Shown here piece by piece: positions 3,006 to 61,216 of a stretch of DNA of 64,000 nt. The stretch lies in the NCBI RefSeq assembly GCF_900109665.1, contig NZ_FOAO01000002.1, forward strand, positions 62,001 through 126,000, given 5' to 3'. Numbering within the stretch: position 1 is the first letter of the stretch; the number at the start of each line of letters is the position of its first letter. The notes beneath the pieces were generated by a model. The model was not told the origin of the DNA. It did not search any database and saw only the letters and a list, made by a program, of their open reading frames with translations. A program made the translations under genes and the position numbers. The stretch comes from Blastococcus sp. DSM 46786. GTDB taxonomy: Bacteria > Actinomycetota > Actinomycetes > Mycobacteriales > Geodermatophilaceae.

Positions 3006-4246
3006 GGACCGACCAGCTGGGTCCGTACCGGTTCAAGATCGACCTGGTGTCCGAGCACGCCAGCCCGCTCGCCGCCATCGGCGGCGTCGACGCCGGCGGG
3101 CAGAACGTGCACGTCGCGGCCCTCGCCGCGGGGCTCGCGCAGCGCGGGCACGAGGTCACCGTGCACACCCGCCGGGACGACGCGTCGCTGCCCGAGCGGG
3201 TCGTGGTGCAGGACGGCTACAACGTCGTCCACGTCACCGCGGGGCCGGCCGAACCGCTGCCCAAGGACGAGCTGCTCCAGCACATGCCCGCCTTCGCGCG
3301 GGTGCTGCGGCACGGCTGGGCGGCGCAGCCCCCCGACGTCGTGCACGCGCACTTCTGGATGAGCGGCCTGGCCTCGGTGGAGGCGTCGGCCAGCCTGCTC
3401 GCCCCCGTGCCGGTGCTGCAGACCTTCCACGCCCTGGGCTCGGTCAAGCGCCGGCACCAGGGCGACGCCGACACCTCCCCGGCCGAGCGGATCGACCTCG
3501 AGCGCGGGCTCTGCCGCGACGTGGCCCACGTGGTGGCCACCTGCTCCGACGAGGTGTTCGAGCTGCGCCGCCTGGGGCTTCCCAGCGACCGCGTCTCGAT
3601 CGTGCCCTGCGGCGTCGACACCGCGGTGTTCACGCCCCGCGGCCCGGTGGCCCCGCGGGGTGAGCGGCAGCGGCTGCTGGTCCTCGGCCGGCTGGTCGAG
3701 CGCAAGGGCCAGGACGACGCCGTCCGGGCGCTGCGCGCGGTGCCCGACGCCGAGCTCGTCGTGGTCGGCGGCCCCCCGGCCGGGGAGCTCGACGCCGACC
3801 GCGAGGTGCGCCGGCTGCGCGCCATCGCCGGCGAGGCCGGGGTCGCCGACCGCCTGGTGTTCACCGGGGCCGTCGCCCGTGCCGACGTCCCGGCCTGGAT
3901 CCGCTCGGCCGACGTCGTCCTCGCCGTCCCCTGGTACGAGCCCTTCGGCATCACGCCGCTGGAGGCGATGGCCTGCGCCCGGCCCGTCGTGGCCACGGCC
4001 GTCGGCGGGCTGCAGGACACCGTCGTCGACGGGGTCACCGGCGACCTCGTCCCGGCGCGCGAGCCCGAGCGCCTCGGCGCGGTGCTCGCCGCGCTGCTCG
4101 CCGACGACGAGCGCCGCACCGCCTACGGCGCCGCGGGCGTGAAGCGGGCCCGCACCCGCTACCGCTGGGCCCGCGTCGTCGCCGACACCGAAACCGTCTA
4201 CCGCCAGGTGCTCACCCGGCACCGTCCCGTGGAGGTCGCCAGGTGA
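3002..4246 (+). CDS. Glycosyltransferase family 4
   Basis: The product has 414 residues with full GT4 architecture. GGVDAGGQNVHVAALA at residues ~28-43 is the sugar-nucleotide loop seen in sucrose-phosphate synthase and MshA-like enzymes. HAHFWMSG lies in the acceptor domain, VVPCGVDTAVF at the inter-domain linker, VLGRLVERKGQD at the start of the donor domain, and EPFGITPLE near residue 308 is the EX7E motif. It probably transfers a hexose or heptose to a glycan or lipid acceptor on the cytoplasmic side. It starts at an ATG overlapping the previous stop (ATGA). A 52-bp gap separates it from the isomerase gene that follows. Confidence 0.9.
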   Translation: MRTDQLGPYRFKIDLVSEHASPLAAIGGVDAGGQNVHVAALAAGLAQRGHEVTVHTRRDDASLPERVVVQDGYNVVHVTAGPAEPLPKDELLQHMPAFARVLRHGWAAQPPDVVHAHFWMSGLASVEASASLLAPVPVLQTFHALGSVKRRHQGDADTSPAERIDLERGLCRDVAHVVATCSDEVFELRRLGLPSDRVSIVPCGVDTAVFTPRGPVAPRGERQRLLVLGRLVERKGQDDAVRALRAVPDAELVVVGGPPAGELDADREVRRLRAIAGEAGVADRLVFTGAVARADVPAWIRSADVVLAVPWYEPFGITPLEAMACARPVVATAVGGLQDTVVDGVTGDLVPAREPERLGAVLAALLADDERRTAYGAAGVKRARTRYRWARVVADTETVYRQVLTRHRPVEVAR

Positions 4247-4298
4247 TGTGCTCGACAGCACGGCGAAGCCGTCCCGTTCCTACACCGGAGGTGGGTCG

Positions 4299-4988
4299 AT
4301 GAGCGTCACCCCGCACTCCTTCTTCGAGAACGTCGTGGCGCAGCGCGACGTCCCGGCGCCGGACACCTGCACCCACCTGACCGGGGCCGACCACGTCGCC
4401 TCGCTGCGGAACGCGCTGCGCTCGCTGGAGGACCAGTTGCCGGCGCTCGACCGCTGGGGCCGGCTGCTGGCCGACGTCCTCTGCGGGCCGTCCCGCGGCC
4501 GGCTGCTGGCCGCAGGCAACGGCGGGAGCGCCGCCCAGGCCCAGCACCTCACCGCCGAGCTGGTGGGCCGCTACCGCGCCGACCGCCCGCCCTTCTCGGC
4601 CATCTGCCTCACCGCGGAGACCTCCTCGCTGACCGCGATCGCCAACGACTACCCGGCCGACGAGCTGTTCGCCCGGCAGGTGGAGGCCCACGGCCGGGCG
4701 GGTGACGTGCTGGTCCTGCTGTCGACGTCGGGCCGCTCGCCCAACGCGGTCGCCGCCGCCCGGCGGGCCCGCGAGTGCGGCATCACGACGCTGGCGATCA
4801 CCGGGCCGGCGCCGAACCCGCTGGCCGCCGCGGCCGACGACGCGGTCTGCATCGACTCCCCGTGGACCGCCACCGTGCAGGAGTGCCACCTGGCCGCCCT
4901 GCACCTGGTCTGCGCCGCCTTCGACGCGGCCGTGCTCGCCGCCCCGCCGCGGGTGCCCGCGGGGCCGTCGTTCGAGGCGGCGACGTGA
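4299..4988 (+). CDS. gmhA: Phosphoheptose isomerase (SIS domain)
   Basis: The product has 229 residues and a single SIS domain: AGNGGSAAQAQHLTAEL near residue 72 and LSTSGRSPN near residue 140, with the C-terminal ECHLAALHLVC helix carrying active-site acid and His positions. GmhA converts sedoheptulose 7-phosphate to D-glycero-D-manno-heptose 7-phosphate. An in-frame ATG exists at 4248, but the ATG at 4299 has a strong Shine-Dalgarno (GGAGGTGG at 4287-4294) four bases upstream and gives a family-like length, so it was preferred. The stop overlaps the hldE GTG. Confidence 0.9.
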   Translation: MSVTPHSFFENVVAQRDVPAPDTCTHLTGADHVASLRNALRSLEDQLPALDRWGRLLADVLCGPSRGRLLAAGNGGSAAQAQHLTAELVGRYRADRPPFSAICLTAETSSLTAIANDYPADELFARQVEAHGRAGDVLVLLSTSGRSPNAVAAARRARECGITTLAITGPAPNPLAAAADDAVCIDSPWTATVQECHLAALHLVCAAFDAAVLAAPPRVPAGPSFEAAT

Positions 4989-6349
4989 GCGCCCGGCCGC
5001 TGGTCGTCGTCGGGGACGCGCTGCTCGACGTCGACCTGGTCGGCACCGCGTCGCGGCTGACCCCCGACGCCCCGGTGCCCGTGGTCGAGGACGTCGAACG
5101 GCGGGAACGCCCGGGGGGCGCCGCGCTCGCGGCGGTCATCGCGGCCGCGGCGGGGTCCCGCGAGGTGGTGCTCGTGGCGCCGCTGGACTCCGACGAGGAC
5201 GCCGACCGGTTGCGCGCCCTGCTCGCCAGCCGCGTCCGCCTGGTCGAGATCCCGGCCACCGGGGGCACCGCCGTGAAGCAGCGGGTGCGCGTCGGCGACC
5301 ACTCCGTTGCCCGGCTGGACAGCGGCGCGGCGGTCGCCGTGCTCGGCGAGCTCCCCGCCGCGGCCGCCGCCGCGATCCGCGACGCCGCCGCCGTCCTCGT
5401 CGCCGACTACGGCCGGGGGACGACGGTCGACCCGGCGGTGCGCGCGGCCCTGGCCGAGGCCCGCGGCCCCGTCGTCTGGGACCCGCACCCGCGGGGCGCC
5501 GACCCGGTGCCCAGCGCCCGCCTGGTCACGCCCAACGGCGCGGAGGCGGCCCGGGTGGTCCCGGCCGTGGACGGCGAGGGCCTGGCCGCCGTCGGTGCCC
5601 GAGCGGAGGCGCTCATCCGGCACTGGGGCGTGGGCGCGGTCGCGGTGACGATGGGCGCCCGCGGCGCGCTGCTCTCGTACGGCACCGGTGCACCGATGGT
5701 CGTGCCCGCGGTCGCGGTCACCGGCGGTGACCCCTGCGGCGCCGGGGACTCCTTCGCCGCCGCCGCGGCGCTGGCCCTCGCCGACGGCGCGGTCACCGGC
5801 GAGGCGGTGGCCGCCGCGGTGGCCTTCGCCTCGGCGTTCGTCGCCCGCGGGGGAGCGACCGCCTGGGACGCCGACGAGCGGGTCGAGGCGGTGGCCCCCG
5901 AGCCCGGCGCCGAGGCCGTCATCGCGCGGGTGCGCGCCGCCGGGGGCACCGTCGTCGCCACCGGGGGCTGCTTCGACCTGCTGCACCCCGGGCACGTCGC
6001 CACGCTGCGCGCCGCCCGCGGGCTGGGCGACTGCCTCGTCGTCTGCATCAACTCCGACGACTCGGTGCGCCGGCTCAAGGGCCCGTCGCGGCCGCTGGTG
6101 ACCGCCCCCGACCGCGCCCGGGTGCTGGAGGCGCTGGAGTTCGTCGACGCGGTGGTGGTCTTCGACGAGGACACCCCCACGCAGGTGCTCGACCGGCTGC
6201 GCCCCGACGTCTGGGCCAAGGGCGGCGACTACGCCGGTGCGGACCTGCCCGAGGCCGAGGTGCTGCGCTCCTGGGGTGGACAGGCCGTCGTCCTGCCCTA
6301 CCTGGACGGCCACTCGACCACGGCCCTGGTCGAGCGCTCGCGCGTATGA
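4985..6349 (+). CDS. hldE: Bifunctional heptose-7-phosphate kinase / heptose-1-phosphate adenylyltransferase
   Basis: The product has 454 residues. Residues 1-~310 form a PfkB-type ribokinase domain with GGAALAAVIAAAAG near the start, VADYGRG in the middle and the catalytic GGDPCGAGDSF near residue 247. Residues ~315-454 form a cytidylyltransferase-like domain with GGCFDLLHPGHVATL (HPGH nucleotide-binding motif) near residue 327 and a KGGDY motif. HldE phosphorylates heptose 7-phosphate at C1 and, after GmhB, adenylylates heptose 1-phosphate to ADP-heptose. With gmhA and the gmhB fusion, the operon encodes the complete route to ADP-D-glycero-beta-D-manno-heptose. No HldD epimerase is visible in this window. 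GTG 4985 overlaps the gmhA stop. Confidence 0.92.
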   Translation: MSARPLVVVGDALLDVDLVGTASRLTPDAPVPVVEDVERRERPGGAALAAVIAAAAGSREVVLVAPLDSDEDADRLRALLASRVRLVEIPATGGTAVKQRVRVGDHSVARLDSGAAVAVLGELPAAAAAAIRDAAAVLVADYGRGTTVDPAVRAALAEARGPVVWDPHPRGADPVPSARLVTPNGAEAARVVPAVDGEGLAAVGARAEALIRHWGVGAVAVTMGARGALLSYGTGAPMVVPAVAVTGGDPCGAGDSFAAAAALALADGAVTGEAVAAAVAFASAFVARGGATAWDADERVEAVAPEPGAEAVIARVRAAGGTVVATGGCFDLLHPGHVATLRAARGLGDCLVVCINSDDSVRRLKGPSRPLVTAPDRARVLEALEFVDAVVVFDEDTPTQVLDRLRPDVWAKGGDYAGADLPEAEVLRSWGGQAVVLPYLDGHSTTALVERSRV

Positions 6350-6366
6350 GGCACGCCGTGCTGACA

Positions 6367-6426
6367 GGCATAGGAAGCTTTACGTGTGGATCCGCCCCCG
6401 TTTCCGCAGGTAAAGCTTCCTATGCC
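6367..6426. repeat. Palindromic repeat, family A, copy 1
   Basis: Two perfect 17-base arms, GGCATAGGAAGCTTTAC (6367-6383) and its complement (6410-6426), flank a 26-base loop. The outer 13 bases GGCATAGGAAGCT recur as the outer arm of a second palindrome at 35759-35820, where the inner arm is different but still paired. It lies in the 85-bp gap between hldE and the GT9 gene and ends just before the latter's ribosome binding site. There is no T-tract, so a simple intrinsic terminator is uncertain. It could be a REP/MITE-like element or a protein-binding site. Confidence 0.75.
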
Positions 6427-6434
6427 AGGGGCCG

Positions 6435-7403
6435 GTGAGCGTCGAGGCGCCCGCGGCGGTCGTCCTGCGGCCGCTGGGGCTGGGCGACCTGCTCACCGGG
6501 GTACCGGCCATCCGGGCGGTGCGGGCGGCCGTGCCCGGGCACCGGCTGGTGCTGGCGACGACGACGGCGCTGCAGCCGCTGGCCGCGCTCATCGACGCCG
6601 TCGACGAGGTGCTGCCCGCCCGCGAGCTGGAGCCGCTGGACTGGTCGGGGCCGCCGCCGGAGCTCGCCGTCGACCTCCACGGCAAGGGCCCGGCCTCGCA
6701 CGTGGTCGTCGCCGACCTGCACCCGCAGCGGCTGCTCACCTTCGCCGGCCCAGGCTACCCCGGACCCACCTGGTACCCCGACGAGCACGAGGTCCGGCGC
6801 TGGTGCCGGCTGGTCTCCGAGGGACTCGCAGTCGACGCCGATCCCGACGCGCTGGACATCGCCGTGCCCGCCGCGCCGCCGCCGGTGCGCGGGGCCACCG
6901 TGGTGCACCCGGGGGCGGCGTTCCCCGGCCGCCGCTGGCCGGCCGACCGCTTCGCCGCCGTCGCCCGCCACCTCGCCGCCCGCGGCCACGACGTGCGCAT
7001 CACCGGCGGCCCGGCGGAGGTGGAGCTAGCCCGGTCGGTGGCCGCGGCGGCCGGGCTGCCGGAGTCGGCCGTGCTGGCCGGCCGGACGACGTCCGTGGAG
7101 CTCGCGGCGGTGGTGGCCGCGGCGCGGGTGGTCGTGTGCGGCGACACCGGCGTCGCGCACCTGGCCACCGCCTACCGGCGACCGTCCGTGGTGCTTTTCG
7201 GCCCGGTGCCACCGGCGCTGTGGGGGCCGCCGCCGCGCCCGCAGCACGTGGTGCTCTGGCACGGCGACGGCACCGGCGACCCGTGGGGCACCGACCTCGA
7301 TCCCGCCCTGGCCCGCATCACCGTCGACCAGGTGGAGGGGGCACTCGACGAGCTCCTGCCCGGTCACGCCGAGTGGATCCCGGAGGGGTCCGCGCAGGCG
7401 TGA
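6435..7403 (+). CDS. Glycosyltransferase family 9 (heptosyltransferase-like), second copy
   Basis: The product has 322 residues. It starts VVLRPLGLGDLLTGVPAIRA, the GT9 N-terminal phosphate-binding region, has VVHPGAAFPGRRWPADRF in the middle, and CGDTGVAHLATAYRRPSV near residue 235 as the donor site. This is a second candidate heptosyltransferase for the ADP-heptose made by the upstream operon. The GTG at 6435 follows an AGGGG ribosome binding site four bases upstream. The palindrome at 6367-6426 separates it from hldE, so it may be a separate or modulated transcription unit. Confidence 0.87.
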   Translation: MSVEAPAAVVLRPLGLGDLLTGVPAIRAVRAAVPGHRLVLATTTALQPLAALIDAVDEVLPARELEPLDWSGPPPELAVDLHGKGPASHVVVADLHPQRLLTFAGPGYPGPTWYPDEHEVRRWCRLVSEGLAVDADPDALDIAVPAAPPPVRGATVVHPGAAFPGRRWPADRFAAVARHLAARGHDVRITGGPAEVELARSVAAAAGLPESAVLAGRTTSVELAAVVAAARVVVCGDTGVAHLATAYRRPSVVLFGPVPPALWGPPPRPQHVVLWHGDGTGDPWGTDLDPALARITVDQVEGALDELLPGHAEWIPEGSAQA

Positions 7404-19894: not shown

Positions 19895-20538
19895 CGGTCA
19901 CCGCGGTGGTGTTCGACCTGGGCGGGGTGCTCACCGAGAGCCCGATGACCGCCTTCGCCGCCTACGAGCGGGAGGCCGGGGTGCCCGAGGGGCTGATCCG
20001 GCAGCTGAACTCCACCGACCCGGACACGAACGCCTGGGCCCGGTACGAGCGCAACGAGCTCGACGTCGCCGGGTTCTCCGCCACCTTCGAGGCCGAGGCC
20101 GCGGCGCTGGGGCACCGGATCGAGGCCGCGCGGGTGCTGGCCGCGCTGCAGGGGGAGCTGCGCCCGGCGATGATCGCGGCGGTGCGCCGGCTGCGCGAGG
20201 CCGGGCTGCCGCTGGCGCTGCTGTCGAACAACGTGGCGCCGATGGAGCGCGGCGGCCGGCTGGACGACGTGCTCGGCCTGTTCGACGCGATCGTCGAGTC
20301 GTCGGTCGAGGGCGTGCGCAAGCCCGAGCCGGAGATCTACCGGCGGGCGCTCGACCGGCTCTCCGAGGCCGTCGGGCGGCGCATCGAGGCCGCCCACTGC
20401 GCCTACCTCGACGACCTGGGCATCAACCTCAAGCCCGCCCGGGCGGTGGGCTTCTCGACGATCAAGGTGGTCGATCCCGCCGTCGCCCTGGCCGAGCTGT
20501 CCGAGCTGGTCGGTTTCCGGGTGGACGGCGCCGCGTGA
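19891..20538 (+). CDS. HAD-superfamily hydrolase (subfamily IA)
   Basis: The product has 215 residues. FDLGGVL is motif I with the second Asp replaced by Gly, common in epoxide-hydrolase-type and dehalogenase-like HAD proteins. LLSNNVAP is motif II, RKPEPEIYRRAL carries the motif III Lys, and YLDDLGINL is motif IV. A helical cap lies between motifs I and II. It is probably a phosphatase of a small phosphoester, with substrate unknown. GTG 19891 overlaps the upstream stop (GTGA). Confidence 0.84.
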   Translation: MTVTAVVFDLGGVLTESPMTAFAAYEREAGVPEGLIRQLNSTDPDTNAWARYERNELDVAGFSATFEAEAAALGHRIEAARVLAALQGELRPAMIAAVRRLREAGLPLALLSNNVAPMERGGRLDDVLGLFDAIVESSVEGVRKPEPEIYRRALDRLSEAVGRRIEAAHCAYLDDLGINLKPARAVGFSTIKVVDPAVALAELSELVGFRVDGAA

Positions 20539-20539
20539 C

Positions 20540-20615
20540 GGCGCTCCGGGGGGTGCTCCCGCCGCGCTCTGCCTCTGAGTGCGGTGGCACTCAGAGGCAG
20601 AGCGCCCGGAGCGCC
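20540..20615. repeat. Palindromic repeat, family B, copy 1
   Basis: The inner stem is 19 perfect base pairs (20564-20582 with 20587-20605; arm GCGCTCTGCCTCTGAGTGC) around a GGTG loop. The outer stem is 10 perfect pairs (20540-20549 with 20606-20615). The core TCTGCCTCTGAGTGC recurs at 55074-55127 with different but still paired flanks. It fills the gap between the HAD gene and tadA and ends six bases before the tadA GTG. Confidence 0.8.
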
Positions 20616-20620
20616 ACCCG

Positions 20621-21085
20621 GTGAGCCCCGACCTGGACGCCGCCATGGCGCGTGCCCTCGAGCTCGCGGCGGGAGCGGAGCAGTGGGGCGACACGCCGAT
20701 CGGCGCCGTCGTCCTCGGTCCGGACGGCGCCGTCCTCGCCGAGGCGGCCAACGAGCGGGAGAAGCGCGGCGACCCCACCGCGCATGCAGAGGTGCTCGCG
20801 CTGCGCGCGGCGGCGCAGGTGCACGGCGACGGCTGGCGGCTGGGCGGCTGCACCCTGGTCGTCACCCTGGAGCCCTGCACCATGTGCGCCGGGGCCAGCG
20901 TGCTGTCGCGGGTGGCGCACGTCGTCTACGGCGCCGACGACCCGAAGGCCGGCGCGGCGGGGTCGCTGTGGGACGTGGTCCGCGACCGCCGGCTCAACCA
21001 CCGGCCCGAGGTCACCGGCGGTGTGCGGGCGGAGGAGTGCGGCGCGCTGCTACGTGCCTTCTTCCGCCGTCAGCGGGGCCTGTAG
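20621..21085 (+). CDS. tadA: tRNA-specific adenosine deaminase
   Basis: The product has 154 residues of the cytidine/deoxycytidylate deaminase fold: HAEVLALR supplies the zinc His and catalytic Glu, and PCTMCAGA supplies the two zinc Cys, with a GSLWDVVRDRRLNHRPEV stretch toward the C-terminus. TadA converts A34 of tRNA-Arg(ACG) to inosine. GTG 20621 is used, with a weak GGAG nine bases upstream. The palindrome at 20540-20615 ends directly before it. A later in-frame ATG (20645) would remove eight residues. Confidence 0.92.
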   Translation: MSPDLDAAMARALELAAGAEQWGDTPIGAVVLGPDGAVLAEAANEREKRGDPTAHAEVLALRAAAQVHGDGWRLGGCTLVVTLEPCTMCAGASVLSRVAHVVYGADDPKAGAAGSLWDVVRDRRLNHRPEVTGGVRAEECGALLRAFFRRQRGL

Positions 21086-31487: not shown

Positions 31488-32492
31488 GTGCTCCGCTTCA
31501 TCGTCCGGCGGCTCCTCCAGCTGATCCCGATCCTGCTGGGGCTGTCCGTCCTCCTGTTCGCCTGGCTACGCGCCCTTCCCGGTGGCCCCGCGCAGGCCGC
31601 CCTCGGCGAGCGCGCCACCCCCGAGGCGATCGCCCAGTACAACGAGCTGTTCGGCCTCGACGAGCCGCTCTACGTCCAGTACTTCCGCTTCCTGGGGCGC
31701 GCCGTCCAGCTCGACTTCGGCAGCTCCACGCAGTACGGCCGACCGGTGAGCGAGGTCTTCCTCGAGCGCTTCCCGGGCACCATCGAGCTGACGCTGTTCG
31801 CGATGTTGTTCGCGATCGGCGTCGGCATCCCGCTCGGGTACCTGGCCGCGCGGCGGTACGGCAGCTTCCTCGACTCGGCGTCCGTCGTCGGCTCGCTGAT
31901 CGGCGTCGCGATCCCGGTCTTCTTCCTCGCGTACCTGCTCCGGCTGCTTTTCGCCGTCGAGCTGGGCTGGCTGCCGGGGTCGGGGCGCCAGGACGTGCGC
32001 ATCGACGCCACCCGGATCACCAACTTCTACGTCCTGGACGGTCTGCTGACCCGCGAGTGGGACGCCGCCTGGGACGCGGTGCTGCACCTGGTCCTGCCGG
32101 CCATCGCGCTGGGCACGATCCCGCTGGCGATCATCGTCCGGATCACCCGGGCCTCGGTGCTCGACGTGGTGAACGAGGACTACGTGCGGACGGCGAACGC
32201 CAAGGGCCTGGCGATGGCGACCGTGCGCCGCCGGCACATCATCCGCAACGCCCTGCTGCCGGTGTCGACGACGATCGGCCTGCAGACCGGGCTGCTGCTG
32301 TCCGGGGCGGTGCTCACCGAGACGGTGTTCGCGTTCGGCGGTGTCGGCTCGACGCTGTACGACGCGATCCGGTTCCGGGATTTCGCCGTCCTGCAGGGCT
32401 TCATCCTCATGCTGGCGGTCGTGTACGTGCTGGTGAACCTGCTGGTCGACATCTCCTACGGCCTGCTCGACCCGAGGGTGAGAGTCCGATGA
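31488..32492 (+). CDS. dppB: Peptide ABC transporter permease
   Basis: The product has 334 residues: FIVRRLLQLIPILLGLSVLLF at the N-terminus, then YVRTANAKGLAMATVRRRHIIRNALLP, the EAA-type loop that contacts the ATPase, and six membrane segments (BPD_transp_1). It forms the transport channel with DppC. The final TGA overlaps the ATG of the first of three mini-ORFs that link it to dppC. Confidence 0.92.
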   Translation: MLRFIVRRLLQLIPILLGLSVLLFAWLRALPGGPAQAALGERATPEAIAQYNELFGLDEPLYVQYFRFLGRAVQLDFGSSTQYGRPVSEVFLERFPGTIELTLFAMLFAIGVGIPLGYLAARRYGSFLDSASVVGSLIGVAIPVFFLAYLLRLLFAVELGWLPGSGRQDVRIDATRITNFYVLDGLLTREWDAAWDAVLHLVLPAIALGTIPLAIIVRITRASVLDVVNEDYVRTANAKGLAMATVRRRHIIRNALLPVSTTIGLQTGLLLSGAVLTETVFAFGGVGSTLYDAIRFRDFAVLQGFILMLAVVYVLVNLLVDISYGLLDPRVRVR

Positions 32493-32592
32493 AGCTTGCG
32501 GAATCGGACCGGAGAGCAGAGCGATGAAGCGCGCGGGATCGGACCGGAGAGCAGAGCGATGAAGTGCGCGGGATCGGACCGGGGGGCAGCGC
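32488..32592 (+). repeat. Three tandem 35-bp repeats between dppB and dppC
   Basis: The units lie at 32488-32522, 32523-32557 and 32558-32592, each beginning GATGAAG and containing ATCGGACCGG then GCAGMGC. Units 1 and 2 differ at three positions, and units 2 and 3 at four. Each unit carries one GGAG- or GGGG-like ribosome site and one ATG. The next GATGA is the dppC start. Confidence 0.95.
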
Positions 32593-32597
32593 GATGA
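32489..32597 (+). other. Chain of three overlapping 12-codon mini-ORFs coupling dppB to dppC
   Basis: ATGs at 32489, 32524 and 32559 open frames for MKLAESDRRAER, MKRAGSDRRAER and MKCAGSDRGAAR. Each ends in TGA that overlaps the next ATG as ATGA. The dppB stop overlaps the first, and the last stop overlaps the dppC ATG. The 39-base frames with four-base overlap explain the 35-bp period. A ribosome could terminate and restart four times in succession. Whether the peptides matter is unknown. Confidence 0.6.
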
Positions 32598-33535
32598 CCG
32601 CGCTCGGGAACTACAAGCGCGAGCGCATCGACGCCCTCGCGGCCCGGGCCGGGCAGCTGCCCGAGGGCGACGCCGGGCTGTCGCTGACCCGCAGCGCCTT
32701 CCGCCGGCTGCGCCGCGACCCGGTCGCGATCACCGGCGCGGTCATCGTGCTGGTCTTCCTCCTCGTGGCGGCGTTCGCGCCGCTGCTGGCGCCGAAGGAC
32801 CCGGTCACCCAGTACCTGCTGTCCGAGATCCGCCCCGGCACCATCCCCGGGTCGCAGGAGGGGTTCCCGCTCGGCGTGGACAACCTCGGCCGCGACCTGC
32901 TCTCCCGGCTGATCTACGGCTCACGGCAGTCGCTGCTCATCGGCGTCGTCTCCACCGTGCTCGGCCTGGTGGTGGGGATGAGCCTGGGCGTGCTGGCCGG
33001 CGCCTTCGGCGGCTGGGTCGACACCGTGGTCATGCGGTTCGTCGACATCATCCTGTCGATCCCGGGCCTGCTCATGGCGATCACCGTCTCGGTGCTGCTG
33101 GGGCAGAGCCAGCTGTCGCTGATGATCGCCATCGCCGTCGTCCAGGTGCCGATCTTCGCCCGGCTGCTCCGCGGCTCGATGCTGGCCCAGCGCGGCAGCG
33201 ACTACGCCGTCGCGGCCCGGGCGCTGGGCGTGCGGAAGGGCCGGATCGTGTTCGGGCACGTGCTGCCGAACTCGCTGTCGCCGGTCATCGTCCAGGCGAC
33301 GCTGTCCCTGGCGACGGCGATCATCGAGGCCGCCGCGCTCTCCTACCTGGGTCTGGGCGACCCCGACATCGCCCGCCCCGAGTGGGGCGCGATGCTGGCC
33401 AACGCCCAGGACTTCCTCTCCATCCGCCCGGCGCTCGCCGTCTGGCCGGCGCTGTGCATCATCGTCGTCGCGCTGGGCTTCACGCTGCTCGGGGAGCGCC
33501 TGCGCGAGGCCCTCGACCCGAAGTTCCGGAGGTGA
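32594..33535 (+). CDS. dppC: Peptide ABC transporter permease
   Basis: The product has 313 residues with an N-terminal cytoplasmic ~45 residues, then membrane segments. It contains FPLGVDNLGRDLLSRLIYGSR, the DppC/OppC signature, and YAVAARALGVRKGRIVFGHVLPNSLSP, the ATPase-contact loop. ATG 32594 was chosen because it is the fourth member of the ATGA chain and has a G-rich ribosome site. A GTG at 32564 would add ten residues that are only repeat-encoded. Confidence 0.92.
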   Translation: MTALGNYKRERIDALAARAGQLPEGDAGLSLTRSAFRRLRRDPVAITGAVIVLVFLLVAAFAPLLAPKDPVTQYLLSEIRPGTIPGSQEGFPLGVDNLGRDLLSRLIYGSRQSLLIGVVSTVLGLVVGMSLGVLAGAFGGWVDTVVMRFVDIILSIPGLLMAITVSVLLGQSQLSLMIAIAVVQVPIFARLLRGSMLAQRGSDYAVAARALGVRKGRIVFGHVLPNSLSPVIVQATLSLATAIIEAAALSYLGLGDPDIARPEWGAMLANAQDFLSIRPALAVWPALCIIVVALGFTLLGERLREALDPKFRR

Positions 33536-34572
33536 GCTCCCTGCAGGCACCGGTGCTCGAGGTGGAGGACCTCGCCGTCCGCTTCACCCGCCGCGGTGAG
33601 CAGTCCACCCGCGCCGTCGACGGCGTCAGCTTCTCGGTGGCCCCCGGCGAGACGATCGGGCTGGTGGGGGAGTCCGGCTGCGGGAAGTCGGTCACCTCGC
33701 TGGCGATCATGGGGCTGCTGCCGCGGCGCGGCGTGGAGGTGACCGGCTCGGTCCGCTTCGACGGCAACGACCTCGTCGGCGCCCCCGACCACGTGCTGCG
33801 CGGGCTGCGGGGCGCCGACATGGGCATGGTCTTCCAGGACCCGCTCTCCTCGCTCAACCCCACCGTGCCGATCGGTACGCAGGTCACCGAGGTGCTGCTG
33901 GAGCACCGCGAGATGTCCAAGGCCGAGGCCCGGGACGAGGCCGTCCGTCTGCTCGACAGGGTCGGCATCCCCGACCCGTCCCGGCGGTTGAAGGAGTACC
34001 CCCACCAGCTCTCCGGCGGCATGCGGCAGCGGGCGCTGATCGCGATGGCGCTGGCCTGCGCGCCGCGGCTGCTGATCGCCGACGAGCCGACGACGGCGCT
34101 CGACGTCACCATCCAGGCGCAGATCCTGGAGCTGCTGCGCGAGCTCGTCGTCGACTCGGGGACGGCGCTGGTGATGATCACCCACGACCTCGGCGTGGTC
34201 GCCGGGCTGTGCGACCGGGTGCACGTCATGTACGCCGGCAAGATCATCGAGACGGCGGACCGGCGGGACCTGTTCGCCCGCCCCCGCCAGCCCTACACCG
34301 GCGGGCTGCTGTCGTCGGTCCCGCGGCTGGACTCCGCCCGCGGGGCCCCGCTCACGCCCATCCGCGGCTCGGCCCGCGACGCCATCCCGTGGTCGGAGGG
34401 GTGCGCCTTCGCCCCGCGCTGCGACAACGCCCAGGACGACTGCCTGACCGAGGTGTCGGGCAGCACCGTGCCGTTGGTGCCGGACGGCCCCGGCCGGGAG
34501 CTGCGCTGCCGCCACCCGCTCGAGCACCCGTCCGCGCCGTCGGGCGCCACCGCCTCCGGAGCCGCCCGATGA
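33532..34572 (+). CDS. dppD: Peptide ABC transporter ATP-binding protein
   Basis: The product has 346 residues: Walker [10 protein letters not shown]-loop [10 protein letters not shown], signature LSGGMRQR, Walker [14 protein letters not shown]-loop ITHDLGVV, and the C-terminal oligopeptide-transporter extension with [17 protein letters not shown] 33532 overlaps the dppC stop (GTGA). Its ribosome site would overlap the GGAGG at the junction, so translation is probably coupled. Confidence 0.92.
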
Positions 34573-35741
34573 CCGCCGTCCCCACCGCCGGCGTCCCGAC
34601 CACCGGGCAGGACGACCTCCTGCGGGTGGAGGACCTCAAGGTCCACTTCCCGATCCGCAAGGGGATCTTCTTCGACCGCACGGTCGGGCACGTGCAGGCG
34701 GTGGACGGCGTCTCGCTCACCGTGCCGCGGGGCGCCACCTACGGGCTGGTCGGGGAGTCCGGCTGCGGCAAGTCGACGCTGGGCCGCGCCATCCTGCGGC
34801 TGGAGGAGCCCACCTCCGGGCGGGTGCTCTTCGACGGCACCGACGTCGCCGCGCTCAAGGGCGAGCCGCTCCGGCAGATGCGGCAGCGGATGCAGATGGT
34901 CTTCCAGGACCCGCTGGGCAGCCTGGACCCGCGGCAGAACGTGGAGTCGCTGCTCTCCGAGCCGTTGCGCGCGCACGGCCTCGCCGGCGGGAAGGCCGGG
35001 ATCGCGGAGAAAATCCGCGGGCTGCTGGACGCCGTCGGGCTGCCCTCGGCCGCGCTGCGCCGCTACCCGCACGAGTTCTCCGGCGGCCAGCGGCAGCGGA
35101 TCGGCATCGCCCGCGCGGTCGCGCTGGAGCCGGACCTGCTGATCGCCGACGAGCCGGTGTCCGCGCTGGACGTGTCGGTGCAGGCCCAGGTGCTCAACCT
35201 GCTCGAGGAGCTGCAGGAGCGGCTGGGCCTCACCTACCTGGTCATCGCGCACGACCTCGCCGTCGTCCGGCACATCAGCGACGTCGTCGGCGTCATGTAC
35301 CTGGGCTCGCTGGTGGAGCAGGCGCCCGCCGACGACCTCTACGAGCAGCCGCTGCACCCCTACACGCGGGCGCTGATGAGCGCCGTGCCGGTGCCCGACC
35401 CGGAGATCGAGGAGGAGCGGGAGCGGATCCTGCTGGCCGGTGACCTGCCGTCGCCGGCCGACCCGCCCAGCGGCTGCCGGTTCCACACCCGCTGCCCGTG
35501 GCGGCAGGAGACCCGCTGTGACGACGAGGTCCCGGTGCTCCGGGAGCTGGGCCCGGGCCGGCTGGTCAGCTGCCACTGGGCCGAGGAGATCCGCGACGGC
35601 GTCCTCCACCCGCGGTCCCCCGAGGAGGTGCTGCACGCCGGTGCGGCCACCCGGCCGGGTACCGGCGGGCGGGCCCGGGACGACGACCCGACCCCCTTCC
35701 TCGGCCGGGACCAGCCCCTGCCGCGGGCCGAGCAGGGCTGA
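34569..35741 (+). CDS. dppF: Peptide ABC transporter ATP-binding protein
   Basis: The product has 390 residues: an N-terminal [26 protein letters not shown] segment typical of DppF/OppF, Walker [10 protein letters not shown], signature FSGGQRQR, Walker [14 protein letters not shown]-loop IAHDLAVV, and the C-terminal [15 protein letters not shown] cluster. The last ~40 residues are polar and variable. ATG 34569 overlaps the dppD stop. It is followed 17 bases later by a family A palindrome. Confidence 0.92.
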
Positions 35742-60640: not shown

Positions 60641-61216
60641 TCAGTCGTCCTCGCCGTCCTCGTCGTCGGCCACGTCGGCGGCCCCGCGGGCCTGCTCCTC
60701 TGCCACGTCGGCGTCCTCGCGGGCCTGCTCCTCGGCCTCCTCGGCGGCCTCCCGGGCCTCCTCCTCGGCCTCCGCAGCCCGCTCAGCGGCCTCTTCGGCG
60801 TCCTCGCGGGCCTGCTCCTCGGCCTCCTCGGCGGCCTCCCGGGCCTCCTCCTCGGCCTCCGCAGCCCGCTCAGCGGCCTCTTCGGCGTCCTCGCGGGCCT
60901 GCTCCTCGGCCTCCTCGGCGGCCTCCCGGGCCTCCTCCTCGGCGTCCTCCCGGGCCTCATCCTCGGCGTCGTCGGTCAGGGCGTCCTCGCTCCCGTCGTC
61001 GGCCCCGAGGTCCGTCGCGACGTCGACGAGGTCGTCGGTCGCGCCGTCCTCGACGGCGACGGACGCGTCGTCCTCGGGCAGCAGGTCGGCGACCGGGACG
61101 ACCCCGGTGGCTCCGGCGGTGCCGATGGCGACGGCCGAGACGGCGCCGGCCACGGCGACCTTGGTGGTGAGGGCGGCTGCGCCGGCCTTGGCGATGAGGA
61201 GGGTGAGCAGGTCCAT
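60641..61216 (-). CDS. Acidic Ala/Glu repeat protein
   Basis: The product has 191 residues. A hydrophobic N-terminus (LLTLLIAKAGAAALTTKVAVAGAVSAVAIGTAGATG) acts as a signal or membrane anchor. About 40 acidic residues follow, then a 29-residue repeat (EEAREAAEEAEEQ and related) of Glu, Ala, Arg and Asp in nearly three copies, which should form a long charged helix or coiled coil. The family is not recognised. GGAAGG lies six bases before the ATG. Its position next to a sigma factor and an anti-sigma-like protein with a similar tail suggests they work together. Confidence 0.72.
   Translation of the reverse strand: MDLLTLLIAKAGAAALTTKVAVAGAVSAVAIGTAGATGVVPVADLLPEDDASVAVEDGATDDLVDVATDLGADDGSEDALTDDAEDEAREDAEEEAREAAEEAEEQAREDAEEAAERAAEAEEEAREAAEEAEEQAREDAEEAAERAAEAEEEAREAAEEAEEQAREDADVAEEQARGAADVADDEDGEDD
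60711..60960. repeat. 87-bp tandem repeat in the acidic protein gene
   Basis: Units begin at 60711, 60798 and 60885, each with GCGTCCTCGCGGGCC, the third being incomplete. The first two copies are nearly identical at DNA level. Being a multiple of three, the period keeps frame. Confidence 0.92.

Follow-up and report, generated by a model that had tools for sequence, protein, structure and literature searches.

The window, by which we mean the whole 64,000-nucleotide stretch analysed here, contains a run of forward-strand genes comprising a dppB-like permease gene (31488–32492), a dppC-like permease gene (32594–33535) whose residue 1 is aligned in many relatives, and dppD- and dppF-like ATPase genes (33532–35741) assigned from sequence and NCBIfam. 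The names dppB and dppC also derive from NCBIfam and are approximate, as the matches are strong yet fall under the curated cut-offs; the best match of dppB is DppB PRK10914 (E 1.3e-89, below the cut-off). The dppB gene ends with GTC CGA TGA, and its stop codon (32490–32492) overlaps an ATG that opens an array of three tandem 35-bp units (32489–32593, forward strand), each containing one 12-codon ORF. Mini-ORF 1 (32489–32527; unit 1, 32489–32523) is translated as MKLAESDRRAER, mini-ORF 2 (32524–32562; unit 2, 32524–32558) as MKRAGSDRRAER, and mini-ORF 3 (32559–32597; unit 3, 32559–32593) as MKCAGSDRGAAR, each followed by a stop codon, the last of which lies over the dppC ATG. The dppB gene is thus joined to dppC not gene to gene but through the mini-ORFs, via four ATGA stop/start overlaps at 32489, 32524, 32559 and 32594. 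An earlier note on this DNA had described three 35-bp repeats with a 12-codon ORF apiece and four successive ATGA junctions, and direct reading of 32489–32593 agrees with it exactly. Further downstream in the same operon, dppC-dppD (GTGA) and dppD-dppF (ATGA) are direct overlaps with no units.

The NTGA stop/start overlap typical of coupled gene pairs is therefore present in the window, as is a Shine-Dalgarno (SD) motif before the restart codons, which is common but not essential in such pairs. GGAG occurs upstream of the second ATG (32524), at 32511–32514 in unit 1, and upstream of the third (32559), at 32546–32549 in unit 2, both with a predicted anti-SD pairing of −6.6 kcal/mol, and GGGGGG at 32581–32586 in unit 3 precedes the dppC ATG; all three are on the forward strand. 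Predicted pairing energies for starts 1, 2, 3 and dppC are −6.9, −6.6, −6.6 and −9.4 kcal/mol with an assumed anti-SD sequence, and because 25% of the 362 ATGs in the window reach −6.4 kcal/mol or lower, only the dppC start stands out. Unit 3 also contains an in-frame forward-strand GTG (32564–32566) that is a possible alternative dppC start.

The units are similar but not identical, with three base differences between units 1 and 2, four between units 2 and 3, and seven between units 1 and 3, and Tandem Repeats Finder reports the array as 35 bp × 3.5 copies with a score of 174. A 24-base core of the unit (up to three mismatches) matches the window three times, always within the array, and none of 100 shuffles contains a match. 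The stop/start word CGATGA forms a short direct repeat at the unit ends; in a fixed-register comparison the unit matches the end of dppB at only 8–12 of 35 positions, and no inverted repeats were found in 32400–32700. The unit was considered as a dispersed repeat and rejected, as a 261-bp query against its own genome recovered, apart from its own locus, just two short matches lying outside the units, with no further unit copies among the 40 of 301 first-look candidates that were scored. An assembly error also seems unlikely: the units are set apart by 3–7 bases, relatives carry related units, and one single-contig genome has four. Elsewhere in the window, at 60708–60947, there is an 87-bp tandem repeat of 2.8 copies with 99% matches.

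By a relay we mean a chain in which the stop of each short ORF overlaps the next start and the last closes on the start of the downstream gene. Such a pattern arises readily, since 74 of the 85 35-mers beginning with ATGA on the forward strand of the window would yield a relay if duplicated, and duplication of any ATGA-initial unit with a length of 2 mod 3 does so near-automatically. Chance therefore does not explain the repeat, by a wide margin, but it could explain the relay pattern. With most 35-mers forming relays, the design as seen in one genome is weak evidence, and it is the comparative evidence that carries weight.

A collection scan confirmed 201 stretches, of which the best 80 include the Geodermatophilaceae genera Blastococcus, Geodermatophilus, Modestobacter and Klenkia. 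Matches at E 1e-80 or better were obtained in 55 of 112 family genomes, and 54 junctions were taken after a partial match (G073) was dropped. Fifty of the 54 were scored, leaving out three with no start by the rule used (G067, G069 and G070) and one with CTGA (G074), and in one genome with a 17-nt linker (G065) the dppC start was placed by hand at the relay-closing ATG, the script having taken another in-frame ATG. The collections contain one genome per species, so that the variation in unit number seen is between species.

The 50 junctions divide evenly into 25 with a direct NTGA overlap and no unit and 25 with a linker. All but one of the linkers (24/25) are relays closing exactly on the dppC start, such that the stop of a short ORF lies over the start of the next gene as in relay uORFs; the exception (G090) is a 33-mer that forms an in-frame 33-bp extension of dppC, and none is broken. 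This contrasts with the same linkers when the frame is moved by −1 or +2, where 21 and 19 respectively are broken (4 and 6 still closing), whereas moving it by +1 or −2 gives mostly in-frame extensions (22/25 each). The linkers contain 37 units with lengths of 17, 32, 33, 35, 36 and 38 bp, none of which is 1 mod 3; where the length is 0 mod 3 the ORF continues across the following ATG without a change of frame and closes further along. Eighteen of the 25 linkers have a single unit; single units include 35-mers, 32-mers and one 38-mer, paired units are 36+35 or 36+32, and triple units are 33+33+35, 33+36+32 or, in the window, 35×3. One genome (G008) has four 35-mers, three of them identical and one with a single difference, and the 17-bp linker of G065 is an unrelated duplication of the junction that also closes, at the start set by hand. 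Unit number thus ranges from 0 to 4 among related genomes and behaves between species as a variable-number tandem repeat. The junction alignment that the earlier note proposed shows that the number does vary, and its suggestions of a tandemly duplicated coupling junction and of a ribosome path through successive NTGA overlaps are borne out to the extent that the chain is kept closed in relatives.

The junctions scored as direct are not entirely uniform. In eight of the 25, the alignment does not place residue 1 of the window's dppC on the NTG that overlaps the dppB stop, the in-frame offset being −3 to +24 nt, and in four rows scored as direct (G054, G079, G081 and G078) the DppC N-termini are 4–8 residues longer, such that direct overlap and in-frame extension grade into each other. 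Outside the family, 26 dpp junctions were read by eye rather than scored by script, and in two of these a mini-ORF that closes on dppC follows dppB, with 19 codons in Micromonospora rosaria and 4 in Streptomyces sp. NP160. Within the genus Blastococcus, two records of B. saxobsidens (L014 and L034) have a linker of one unit.

In the linker genomes the dppC start lies 17–140 nt downstream, and the dppB stop thus no longer needs an overlapping start for dppC itself. All 25 linker genomes nonetheless have a start overlapping that stop (ATGA in 21, GTGA in 3 and TTGA in 1). In 21 of them dppB ends with the codon CGA, although CGA accounts for just 16 of 1167 dppB arginine codons (1.4%; 51 genomes, terminal codon left out), and CGC, the commonest dppB arginine codon (47%), is never used as the last codon (0/25). 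Descent may explain part of this conservation, as some neighbouring dppB codons are equally uniform, with G at the third position of codon −4 in 25/25 and C in codon −2 in 22/25; codon −3 varies at its third position (10 G, 9 C and 6 A). The junction states are scattered on a tree of dppB plus dppC (30 of 51 inner branches well supported): among 50 taxa, linker architecture must have changed at least 21 times and linker presence at least 15 times, by gain or loss, and within the window's own clade a genome with no unit (G019) is sister to one with a single unit (G018). Relatives are non-independent as evidence for closure. The five distinct terminal-unit lengths at dppB-dppC give p 0.13 for the missing breaking class, and when 32 architectures, listed by hand from three junctions, are combined, 28 of them close (p 3e-10 if one in three is expected to), these classes being themselves non-independent. 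The mini-ORF peptide is not conserved across unit types.

The predicted SD pairing of the dppC start is stronger in linker genomes (mean −8.96 kcal/mol, n 25) than in the 26 others, whose mean is −7.37 kcal/mol (p 1.2e-5, relatedness of the genomes not being corrected for), and no difference was seen between linker and direct forms in the predicted RNA fold at the dppC start.

Relays at other junctions were sought with a simple gene caller run on 320 kb of one genome (G000) and 800 kb of G008, taking same-strand pairs with gaps of 5–150 nt. Relays account for 10 of 88 pairs in G000 (frame-shifted controls 2, 4, 4 and 2) and 20 of 209 in G008 (controls 4, 11, 10 and 3), and for gaps of 5–50 nt in G008 there is no excess (5 versus controls of 2, 6, 6 and 2). 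Against these 30 relays, there are 23 pairs (5 in G000 and 18 in G008) whose chain is broken even though a start overlaps the upstream stop. Both genomes have relays at ftsH-folE and folE-folP (Pfam labels peptidase M41/AAA, GTP cyclohydrolase I and pterin-binding enzyme), and these two junctions, picked after the relays had appeared there, were examined in 42 of 104 genomes with a folE match. At ftsH-folE there are 20 relays, 21 direct overlaps and one junction without a start (CTGA) among 42 scored; at folE-folP there are 13 relays, 25 direct overlaps and two with a TAG stop among 40 scored, two further junctions being without an anchor. Pooled, this amounts to 33 relays, 46 direct overlaps and three without an upstream start, with none broken at either junction, and the linkers include both short mini-ORFs (start-to-start 11–17 nt) and a 77-bp dispersed repeat. 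In G000, the ftsH-folE (L187:14501-14520) and folE-folP (L187:15132-15151) linkers are six-codon relay mini-ORFs at successive housekeeping junctions.

The dispersed repeat of about 77 bp begins with GTGAGCGAGC, its other end being a GAGGAG site followed by an NTG, and it has at least 37 matches in G008 and at least 17 in G000 (E 0.01; 40 candidates scored in each). For copies longer than 50 nt in the 800 kb of G008, the next downstream gene is on the same strand in 10 of 10. Two tandem copies (L195:6452-6605, G008:C1) form 26-codon relays between RecF-like and DciA genes (Pfam), and at L219:18602-18833 (G008:C1:498602-498833) there are three tandem 79-bp copies in front of a gene that has its upstream neighbour on the opposite strand; the 79-bp period is 1 mod 3, and no relay is formed in this one case where there is no upstream gene to couple. 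The window itself has a 19-codon relay candidate at 4244–4302, between glycosyltransferase and SIS-domain genes (Pfam), and the last 20 bases of this linker recur twice in the G008 sample (L216:15591 and L222:14992). Two other relay candidates, at 6347–6435 and 20536–20621, have long inverted repeats that look terminator-like by eye and may be due to chance.

Taken together, the array is probably a translational relay that keeps dppC coupled to dppB by termination and reinitiation. The dppB stop would deliver ribosomes to the overlapping start, each unit would supply a short ORF with an SD-like site, and the last stop would pass them to the overlapping dppC start. Being overlapped on either side, a mini-ORF would take the ribosome over the expanded junction. 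Unit number presumably rises and falls through slippage involving the CGATGA stop/start word, which is repeated directly at unit ends, events that would leave dppB and dppC intact; the three identical units and one singly changed unit of G008 would fit recent expansion. As to distance, the available text of PMC10666635 reports that in six native pairs (three from E. coli and three from Haloferax) a gap of about 20 nt almost abolishes coupling. The accessible part of a review (PMC12548453) gives the same distance trend, yet cites coupling that persists over gaps of +25 nt or much longer. If coupling weakens as the gap grows, the only linkers tolerated would be those in which translation continues as far as dppC, by a relay or an in-frame extension; coupling over the longer gaps noted in that review (PMC12548453) would make a relay unnecessary. 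A likely role is that coupling is preserved while dppC uses a stronger ribosome-binding site lying outside the constrained dppB C-terminus, as the linker would free the dppC SD from the dppB coding constraint.

One competing account is neutral, with CGATGA slippage multiplying a spacer and dppC initiating from its own SD, which each unit's possession of an SD would allow, such that the mini-ORFs go unused. The near-automatic relay (74 of 85 possible 35-mers), the strong SD at dppC, the direct repeats flanking the units and the conservation of other dppB codons nearby all agree with this, but it does not account for a start kept over the dppB stop in every linker genome, in 21 of them through an arginine codon of 1.4% usage, nor for closure maintained despite varying unit length and found likewise at two junctions with other linker sequences, and we regard it as unlikely. 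Somewhat better placed, but still doubtful, is an attenuator, in line with the earlier note's idea that the array could reduce the yield of dppC relative to dppB, in which ribosomes are lost at each hand-over and unit number lowers the DppC to DppB ratio. A range of 0 to 4 units among relatives would suit such a device, and as coupling efficiency is described as set by spacing and context in the available texts of PMC12548453 and PMC6728339, losses at each step are plausible. The dppC SD pairing is nonetheless predicted to be stronger, not weaker, in linker genomes, and 18 of 25 linkers have a single unit. Permeases of the DppB/DppC kind are moreover expected to contain both subunits in equal amounts. 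On the sequences at hand, the pattern would fit the maintenance of coupling at least as well as its attenuation.

Two further readings are very improbable. Translation of dppC could begin within the array, for which the in-frame GTG at 32564 is available, or the array could be an N-terminal extension, as the in-frame 33 bp of G090 illustrates; the unit of G022 has no GTG equivalent to that at 32564, however, and the dppC start adopted here is the point of closure for 24 of 25 linkers. The encoded peptides (MKxAxSDRxAxR) might instead be active themselves, for example as leader peptides, and they are indeed alike in several genomes of the window's genus, but 32-bp units encode a different type (MSSRIGRGQGR), fused units read as one peptide of 23–34 residues, and the G065 peptide is unrelated and has six residues.

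The naturally occurring series of 0, 1, 2, 3 and 4 units at one junction offers a ready-made test of per-step hand-over efficiency. There is dispute over whether bacterial ribosomes can reach the next gene while staying on the transcript, and how far they can travel in doing so (PMC12548453 and PMC10666635). The arrangement also suggests how coupled operons may gain intergenic DNA yet stay coupled, and because linkers may pass for untranslated spacers in annotation, such mini-ORFs may be overlooked. More tentatively, it is possible that there is a broader class of expandable actinobacterial junctions, in which NTGA-bounded cassettes insert or multiply and pass the ribosome on, and in which unit number can become a heritable dial for protein ratio; the cassettes would be either duplicated 32–38 bp units or the dispersed repeat of about 77 bp, with its NTGA start, GAGGAG SD-like site and NTG end.

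Engineered bicistronic designs use a short leader ORF that hands ribosomes on by a stop/start overlap, as in the array, but are synthetic and have one, non-repeated leader. Among natural systems, NTGA termination-reinitiation pairs, as presented in the available texts of PMC6728339, PMC10666635 and PMC12548453, are alike in the 4-nt stop/start overlap, the upstream SD and the co-directional genes for parts of one complex; there they are described with either a direct overlap or an untranslated gap, whereas the array places one to four mini-ORFs with overlaps at both ends. The mgtQ sORF between Salmonella mgtC and mgtB (PMC8092293, in the part available) is a short intergenic ORF that promotes translation of the second gene, as proposed for the array, but reportedly works by way of alternative RNA stem-loops and of acidic codons that destabilise the ribosome. 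The axe-txe minigene, on the available account in PMC8708949, lies shortly before a gene and raises its translation in a distance-dependent manner; unlike the array, it has two codons, ends 15 nt before txe without a double overlap, and belongs to the leader of an mRNA whose start site lies within axe. The earlier note knew of no described case of this design, and in the open-access literature searched, with subscription papers mostly outside it, no tandem mini-ORF relay between two genes was found; the claim needs qualifying in that a single relay uORF with an AUGA overlap has been published (uPPE2; PMC11260477, as available). In this Mycobacterium tuberculosis uORF the stop lies over the start that follows (AUGA); expression of PPE2 requires the uORF, which its authors term an 'indispensable relay' (PMC11260477). 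It is a single uORF in a riboswitch-controlled leader, with no tandem copies described in that part of the paper, whereas the array lies between structural genes. The closest known counterparts are the uPPE2 relay uORF (PMC11260477) and overlapping stop/start coupling.
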